From assembly GCA_030425505.1 (NCBI GenBank), contig JAUIAB010000001.1, forward strand, positions 1 through 64,000: a stretch of DNA of 64,000 bases. Reading direction: 5' to 3'. Of the stretch, positions 3,259-57,228 are shown piece after piece (the stretch's first letter is position 1; the number at the start of each line of letters is the position of its first letter). This DNA comes from Bacteroidia bacterium. Lineage in GTDB: Bacteria; Bacteroidota; Bacteroidia; Cytophagales; Flammeovirgaceae. The position numbers and the translations under genes are program-made. The notes beneath the pieces were generated by a model. The model ran no database searches and was not told the DNA's origin. It saw only the letters and a program-made list of their open reading frames with translations.

Positions 3259-3371
3259 GGGCACTCTTGCACAAAGCCCGTCCCGGTGCGGCAAGCCTGC
3301 TTCTCTACAAATCCATATCGGTCTTGCCGTTCACCTCTTTCCTACGAGTGCTTTTTAGCCTAGAGGCATGA
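3259..3371 (+). repeat. Structured ~114-bp repeat, copy A
   Basis: One of three related copies in the window (others at 51175-51288 minus and 57114-57227 plus). It is GC-rich against AT-rich surroundings. Outer stem GCACTC (3261-3266) pairs with GAGTGC (3346-3351); inner stem CGGCAAG (3289-3295) pairs with CTTGCCG (3323-3329). A third small hairpin at the end closes on GGCATGA (3365-3371). Stem sequences differ between copies but stay paired. It lies between the M23 remnant and the permease gene. Confidence 0.8.
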
Positions 3372-3479
3372 TTACTAAACACGTTTCTTTATATTATTGT
3401 ATAAGTAATTGATAATCAATTAAATAAATATTTTTTACTCCCTTTTTCATGCAAAAGTCTTAGGAATACAAAGTATTTT

Positions 3480-51174: not shown

Positions 51175-51288
51175 TTATGCCGTTAGGAATGAAAGCACCC
51201 TGGGCTTGGAGGCGCAGGACGAGACCGAAATGGATTTTGCAGGGCTGGCAAGGCTCGACCCGCCGGATAGGCTTTGTGGAGGGTGCCC
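51175..51288 (-). repeat. Structured ~114-bp repeat, copy B
   Basis: Inverted orientation relative to copies A and C. Outer stem GCACCCT/AGGGTGC (51195-51201 with 51280-51286). Inner stem GACGAG/CTCGAC (51218-51223 with 51254-51259), 5 of 6 paired. It fills most of the gap between the dioxygenase and yidC genes. Confidence 0.8.
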
Positions 51289-57113: not shown

Positions 57114-57227
57114 GGGCAGCCTTCCACAAGGCTCGTCCCGGCGAGTCAAGCCTGGCCCTCCCGCTGGCCACTTCGGTCTTGCCTTTCGCCTCTTTCCCTA
57201 GGCTGCACTCATGCCCTTACGGCATGA
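57114..57227 (+). repeat. Structured ~114-bp repeat, copy C
   Basis: Outer stem GCAGCCT/AGGCTGC (57116-57122, 57200-57206); inner stem GTCAAG/CTTGCC (57145-57150, 57178-57183), 5 of 6 paired; terminal hairpin ATGCC-CTTAC-GGCAT (57211-57225). It sits between the imelysin stop codon (2 bases away) and the HTTM gene, so it is transcribed as part of the iron operon if that is one unit. Confidence 0.8.
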
Positions 57228-57228
57228 A

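Follow-up and report, generated by a model that had tools for sequence, protein, structure and literature searches.

The 64,000-nucleotide stretch of DNA analysed here (the window) carries three copies of a structured repeat whose existence as a family is confirmed across its host genome (G000) and in two further genera. Members are non-coding units of 93–121 bp that hold a common fold through covarying stems, lie dispersed in intergenic DNA and, in one relative (G003), recur as a shared unit in unrelated surroundings. Small bacterial repeats are mostly recognized by their sequence; what defines this family is its shape. The best explanation, which we hold at about even confidence, is that the element is a non-autonomous mobile repeat recognized as one folded DNA strand, with a putative mover acting in trans.

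A structured repeat family in the host genome

An earlier note on the window, made from the sequence alone, had placed copies at 3259–3371 (+), 51175–51288 (−) and 57114–57227 (+), with outer stems GCACTC/GAGTGC, GCACCCT/AGGGTGC and GCAGCCT/AGGCTGC and inner stems CAAG/CTTG and CGAG/CTCG; coordinates, strands and stems all proved correct. Its length of about 114 bp combines two parts, a core of about 93 bp (93–94 bp in G000, running GGGCACCCT...AGGGTGC) and a trailing hairpin of the TCATGCC..GGCATGA type that follows the core on its 3′ side in about half of the copies. Strict matches to this hairpin occur twice in 464 kb of the G000 genome, both adjoining an element. The features in the window are as follows.

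3259..3351, + strand: copy 1 core, subfamily A2, with private P1 GCACTC/GAGTGC and private P3 GGTG/CACC
3261..3266, + strand: copy 1 P1 5′ arm, GCACTC
3285..3295, + strand: copy 1 P3 5′ arm, GGTG-CGG-CAAG
3323..3335, + strand: copy 1 P3 3′ arm, CTTG-CCG-(TT bulge, 3330–3331)-CACC
3346..3351, + strand: copy 1 P1 3′ arm, GAGTGC
3352..3372, + strand: copy 1 trailing imperfect hairpin TTTTTAGCCTAGAGGCATGAT, a variable 3′ appendage
51195..51288, − strand: copy 2 core, subfamily C, P3 with CGAG/CTCG
51254..51264, − strand: copy 2 P3 5′ arm, GGCG-GGT-CGAG
51211..51223, − strand: copy 2 P3 3′ arm, CTCG-TCC-TG-CGCC
57114..57206, + strand: copy 3 core, subfamily A1, with private P1 GCAGCCT/AGGCTGC
57116..57122, + strand: copy 3 P1 5′ arm, GCAGCCT
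57140..57150, + strand: copy 3 P3 5′ arm, GGCG-AG-T-CAAG
57178..57190, + strand: copy 3 P3 3′ arm, CTTG-C-CT-TT-CGCC
57200..57206, + strand: copy 3 P1 3′ arm, AGGCTGC
57209..57228, + strand: copy 3 trailing hairpin TCATGCCCTTACGGCATGAA

These three are the only copies in the window, so the description of a three-copy repeat stands for the window and not for the genome. A covariance model built from 26 copies (R1) gave 67 matches in the 2.95-Mb G000 genome at E ≤ 1, around 60 of them confident and the rest weak or decayed, and blastn with one copy as the query gave 34 (best non-self E = 2.7e-25), well beyond what chance would produce. The covariance-model search of the genome and its relatives, which the note had proposed, turned up further copies in which the stems are kept, except in a decayed minority forming the tail of the G000 matches.

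A single strand of each copy can fold into up to three helices: P1, the outer stem, of about 7 bp; P2, a side hairpin that is optional; and P3, the inner stem, of about 11 bp, which carries a conserved 2-nt bulge and ends in a variable apical loop. Read in the orientation of copy 1, the element begins with an unpaired W-G-G foot, followed by the P1 5′ arm, the P2 stretch, the junction GCTCGTCCC and the P3 5′ arm; its 3′ part consists of the apical loop ending in CCAYTTCGGT, the P3 3′ arm with the 2-nt bulge, the junction CCTCTTTCCC and the P1 3′ arm. The two junctions and CCAYTTCGGT are the conserved motifs outside the stems. The P2 stretch is short in G000 and forms a real side hairpin in several copies of a second genome, G001. 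RNAalifold recovered P1 and P3 from an independent MAFFT alignment with no structure supplied. P3 occurs in several subfamily variants (GGCG-AG-T-CAAG/CTTG-C-CT-TT-CGCC, GGCG-CG.../...CG-TT-CGCC, GGCT-GCCAAAG/CTTTGGC-TT-AGCC and GGCG-GG-T-CGAG/CTCG-C-CC-AG-CGCC), all of which retain both the pairing and the bulge.

The note had read the covarying stems of three copies as a sign of selection on structure, and the same pattern holds across about 65 copies and the relatives in two more genera, with two-sided changes exceeding every shuffle. In the alignment of 26 copies, 92.4% of cells are paired and two-sided changes number 54, against a shuffled mean of 14.4 (0 of 500 shuffles reached the observed value) and 2 to 14 in slid controls. 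The corresponding counts are 143 against 41 for 65 copies (0 of 500 shuffles, and again above every slid control) and 187 against a shuffled mean of 52 for 46 G000 plus 18 G001 copies (0 of 500), with a covariation score of 0.397 against 0.127 in this last set, where the number of further pair types alone did not rise above the shuffles. Model-made alignments lean towards the model's structure, and the weight is carried by the RNAalifold result on the independent alignment. Chance or an alignment artefact as the source of the covariation is ruled out by the shuffles and slid controls.

The closest relative of a G000 copy is typically 86% identical to it. Of 2571 unpaired cells, 489 differ between nearest copies (19%, a figure somewhat inflated by loop alignment noise), and among 44 nearest copy pairs there are 64 differing base pairs, 28 of them changed on both sides with both states Watson–Crick. 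Since nearest copies have diverged at unpaired sites while the pairs are held, the copies in G000 do not stem from a recent burst, and pairing has been kept during divergence.

Relatives in two further genera

Four model searches covered the family and order, with 58, 292, 18 and 391 genomes; the sets overlap and were sampled from larger groups, and those above 40 genomes were searched under stricter filters. The element turned up in G000, G001 and G003 alone, which represent three genera of one family; three of the family's eight genera thus carry it, and it was not found in around 390 other genomes sampled from the order. Model R3 also matched G266, from another family, at a site within a SusC-like coding gene, and this match was taken as chance. 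Searches of plasmid and phage DNA returned nothing or chance matches, as did pattern scans of genome and viral contigs, where all matches were attributable to chance.

G001 holds about 20 copies (20 by blastn at E < 1e-5). Their stems differ from those of G000 (P1 GCGCACT/AGTGCGC; P3 GGGT-GG-T-CAAG/CTTG-C-CC-T-ACCC), with the junction and loop motifs common to both. In this genome, at C1:4300301-4301720 (L142 180-1600), a DUF4238 gene has a full element on one side and a partial second copy on the other; the partial copy runs from the apical loop onwards and duplicates about 94 bp, downstream flank included. Insertion of a segment has here doubled half of the element. The element at C1:3758355-3758638 (L141 1277-1560) has an enlarged P2 and apical loop, the loop containing an insert of about 150 bp bounded by AGGAACATGTAAA and TTTACATGTTCCT that is probably another small mobile element. 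Six of the 20 copies cluster within about 150 kb at C1:5623000-5776000, and a single replichore holds 17 of the 20.

G003 carries a longer variant with the stem CGGCAG/CTGCCG, or CAGCAG/CTGCTG in one copy, which keeps the GGCG/CGCC base and the same apical loop CCCACAAAATCCCACTTCGGT. Model R2 scored this variant at only 21.5 bits (E = 0.045) and matches of R3 to G003 arise partly by construction; homology rests on the shared motifs occurring in order. Copies are few, one of them on a plasmid-like contig. A 120-bp unit occurs at C8:1061354, C9:1632415 and C9:3077497 with one differing position among the three copies; the flanks of the C8 copy share nothing with those of the other two, and the C9 pair shares the right flank only. 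This near-identical unit in unrelated flanks is the best direct evidence for dispersal. In a further copy, at C8:1066231-1066424 (L227/L228), the region of the apical loop contains the 14-bp unit GTGTGACCGACCAG six times in tandem.

Placement, replication strand and candidate movers

All G000 copies examined are intergenic, and their distribution among tandem, divergent and convergent regions (37/19/8, with mechanically called ORFs) follows that expected from intergenic length (36.5/16.9/10.5; p = 0.65), which rules out a terminator or UTR element with fixed placement. Orientation relative to tandem genes is mixed (14 versus 23); the upstream gene lies on the same strand in 22 cases and on the opposite strand in 43, and the downstream gene in 33 and 31, respectively. 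The Bacteroidetes promoter motif TANNTTTG gave no signal at a fixed distance on either strand (6 against 10.4 expected upstream on the reverse complement, 4 against 3.6 upstream on the + strand), and with no conserved promoter on either strand an independent sRNA gene was rejected. Searched against Rfam, the window had no match at the gathering threshold, in keeping with the note's remark that no named family was recognizable; at E ≤ 10 only chance matches appeared, and no family matched on the window copy. The note's proposal, an RNA or a small mobile structured element, is supported, and of the two the evidence favours dispersed mobile DNA over an independent RNA gene, given the missing promoter, the lack of a preference for gene orientation or intergenic class and the G003 unit in unrelated flanks.

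The stems contain few wobble-type cells, 29 of about 1,080 when both strands are counted (5 G·T on the + strand and 24 on the other). By comparison, G·U makes up 10 of about 101 pairs in the RNase P RNA gene rnpB of G000 and 13 of about 98 in that of G001. The low wobble share is as expected for DNA pairing and tilts the choice towards DNA over RNA. The lean of these cells towards the purine-rich strand, 24 versus 5, drops to 15 versus 5 (p = 0.04) once the terminal pair is left out, and the 65-copy set shows none. In G000, a terminator-like T-rich run lies 3′ of P1 on the purine-rich strand (on the other strand, A makes up 72% of positions −10 to −6); it is absent in G001.

In G001 the purine-rich strand is the leading strand for 18 of 20 copies (binomial p = 4e-4), or 17 of 19 without the partial duplicate, relative to an origin at about 7.1–7.2 Mb and a terminus at about 3.3 Mb, both inferred from the GC skew of 20 sampled blocks. 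Flanking genes are leading in a ratio of 21:17 and sampled genes in a ratio of 144:120. The bias comes from one genome and about 20 copies, G000 having short contigs and weak skew. The sequence of the leading strand is that of the lagging-strand template, and the purine-rich strand is therefore the one exposed at the fork. IS608 and ISDra2 are described as entering and leaving exposed single strands (PMC6006769), and by analogy the orientation bias in G001 is what would be expected of elements that do so.

The single Y1 (PF01797) transposase of G000 (C32:30880-31224; L054 871-1299) lies 274 bp from one copy, on one side only, a proximity whose probability by chance we estimate at a few percent and which makes Y1 a lead. 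Its motifs (DHIH/WQ/YIKKQK) are of the subclass 1.2 type, and it is 40% identical to the G001 Y1 proteins, whose genes, where read with motifs kept, are of the 1.2 or 1.1 type. Subclass 1.2 enzymes are reported to be of low copy number and to occur without REPs (PMC6006769). The hairpins CCCACGAATTAATTCGTGGG and AACCGTTTCAACGGTTT around the G000 gene are not dispersed among the loci examined, and no element was present at the G001 Y1 loci checked. Given the REP-less subclass type, the gene's own non-dispersed hairpins and the lack of copies at those G001 loci, we rejected a RAYT link.

Comparison with shuffled flanks revealed no excess of flank matches indicative of a target-site duplication (k = 3–8, offsets 0–9), no partner gene was found next to several copies, nor any autonomous partner, and the integron integrase model TIGR02249 had no match over its cut-off in G000, G001 or G003. 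One G003 operon, a module encoding proteins of 118, 116 and 188 aa and a DUF3799 PDDEXK nuclease and accompanied by tandem repeats of about 250 bp, is present in three places, on the plasmid-like contig and twice in the chromosome, with the GC-rich element upstream of each (L238 4178-7302, L239 2822-7312 and L220 4917-8128). The 188-aa protein has homologues in G012, G017 and G021; it has none in G000 or G001, and the operon was accordingly rejected as the autonomous partner. In G000, C33:237079-247284 and C38:1565-11152 each show paired, near-equal tyrosine recombinase matches about 8.5–8.9 kb apart, suggesting duplicated mobile units.

Explanations and likeness to known systems

If the element is a non-autonomous mobile repeat, what is recognized would be the folded shape of a single DNA strand together with the loop motifs, and under such recognition stem sequence can change while pairing is kept. 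Movement would probably occur in trans, at the replication fork while one strand lies exposed, and the enzyme may be a Y1 (HUH) transposase or a tyrosine recombinase. The shape may also be kept after insertion, as the divergence of nearest copies at unpaired sites with paired sites held would suggest. A bolder version, that this is a novel type of mobile or recombinogenic site recognized only as a folded single DNA strand (shape plus loop motifs) by a putative enzyme, is tentative and on present evidence unlikely; in the G000 lineage we found no integron integrase or REP-class transposase that could account for the element.

The main rival, which we judge possible though clearly the lesser prospect, is a cis-acting RNA: a mobile repeat of the ERIC type, transcribed with its neighbours, whose RNA hairpin would affect mRNA stability or termination and whose fold would be selected in RNA. 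ERIC has been reported to affect mRNA stability (PMC2229807), and the strong covariation, the conserved loops, purine-rich on one strand (GGGAAAGAGG, GGCAAGACCGAAATGG and GGGACGAGC), the T-rich run in G000, the weak wobble lean to the purine-rich strand and the pairing kept despite loop divergence all fit such a role. It sits poorly, however, with the mixed orientation to tandem genes, with the full share of copies in divergent regions, which need not be read through, with the absence of the T-run in G001, with wobble pairs well below their frequency in rnpB of G000 and G001 and with the lack of an Rfam match. The retention of pairs between nearest copies that differ by about 19% when unpaired (with the 28 two-sided Watson–Crick differences in 44 nearest pairs), the almost wholly Watson–Crick stems and the replication-oriented G001 copies could point to a host-maintained DNA site, a cruciform or hairpin bound by a nucleoid, replication or repair protein, that spread in the past and is now kept at many loci. 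Yet a patchy presence in three of eight genera, and nowhere else in the sampled order, would be odd for a host function; the decayed tail and the few G003 copies with one on a plasmid-like contig also count against it, and we regard this explanation as improbable.

Less probable again is a REP/RAYT system in which a Y1 tyrosine transposase moves the element as an atypical REP. The proximity of the sole G000 Y1 gene to one copy, the conserved unpaired GG before the stem and the Bacteroidetes subclass 2.6 genes reportedly flanked by atypical dispersed structures (PMC6006769) speak for it, whereas the types of the Y1 enzymes read in G000 and G001, the lack of an element at the G001 Y1 loci checked, the hairpins around the G000 gene, which are not dispersed among the loci examined, and the lack of a GTAG or CGTC tag speak against it. 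Pairing might also arise by mutation with no selection, if one arm of an imperfect palindrome were converted to match the other by template switching between them; two-sided changes far outnumbering one-sided ones, and stems that are almost purely Watson–Crick, are what this would produce. Such switching should nevertheless erase the conserved 2-nt bulge and the P3 mismatches, which persist across subfamilies and, mostly, in both genera, and loop motifs far from the stems are conserved as well, so that we consider it very improbable.

In a single genome, matched changes have rewritten the stems again and again with the bulge, junctions and loop left in place, and the roughly 60 variants in one genome, with three genera, form a natural test set for what a shape-recognizing enzyme or RNA-binding partner reads. 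The family also points to a putative mover in these genomes.

Among known systems the family belongs with the small dispersed palindromic repeats, set apart by a shape kept through compensatory change; it is most like REP or ERIC repeats and is neither a canonical REP, an ordinary MITE nor an attC site. With REP/RAYT systems it has in common intergenic location, a bulged palindrome, tens of dispersed copies, patchiness between genera and an unpaired 5′ foot (PMC3733652, PMC6006769). REPs, which have been proposed to move as folded single-stranded DNA, are palindromes of 20–40 bp with an unpaired GTAG or CGTC tag (PMC3733652), whereas the element measures 93–121 bp, has an (A/T)GG foot in place of the tag and adds P2 and conserved loops; nor did we find a REP-class RAYT in G000 or a tnpA flanked by element copies. 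The nearest published lead, likened by description only, is the set of atypical structures that reportedly flank Bacteroidetes subclass 2.6 Y1 genes and have copies elsewhere in the genome (PMC6006769). ERIC/IRU, YPAL, RUP and MITE-like repeats resemble it in length (about 100–130 bp), intergenic location, a short end-to-end stem, a stable fold and non-autonomy, and the terminal inverted repeat of ERIC is 7 bp (PMC2229807). In contrast to these, the terminal stem of the element varies by compensatory change and is not a sequence-conserved inverted repeat, TA ends and a target-site duplication are lacking, and the element is GC-rich in an AT-rich genome.

We rejected an integron attC site on the grounds that there is no integrase, there are no R boxes and orientation is mixed. 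The boxes of attC sites read R′ GTTRRRY and R″ RYYYAAC, whereas the P1 arms are GCACCCT/AGGGTGC and relatives, not R boxes with GTT/AAC. Sequence-variable stems, a conserved fold, bulged bases, a variable terminal structure and recognition of the shape of one strand are features in common with attC (PMC2727003), but the element does not sit at cassette 3′ ends, shows mixed gene orientation and occurs in genomes with no IntI over the cut-off. We found no published description of the element in the open-access literature searched, and the structured repeat family has apparently not been filed before.

Strong covariation is also common to structured RNAs in Rfam, including RNase P RNA; the element has no Rfam match and its fold is not that of RNase P. 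On its reverse-complement strand GCAAGACC resembles the P11-J11/12 region of RNase P, where rnpB of G000 reads GAAAGACCAAAUA. This motif and the copy upstream of rnpB prompted us to consider an RNase P origin, which was rejected, as sequence and fold do not correspond. The copy in question lies just upstream of rnpB on contig C5 (L094 2091-2651).
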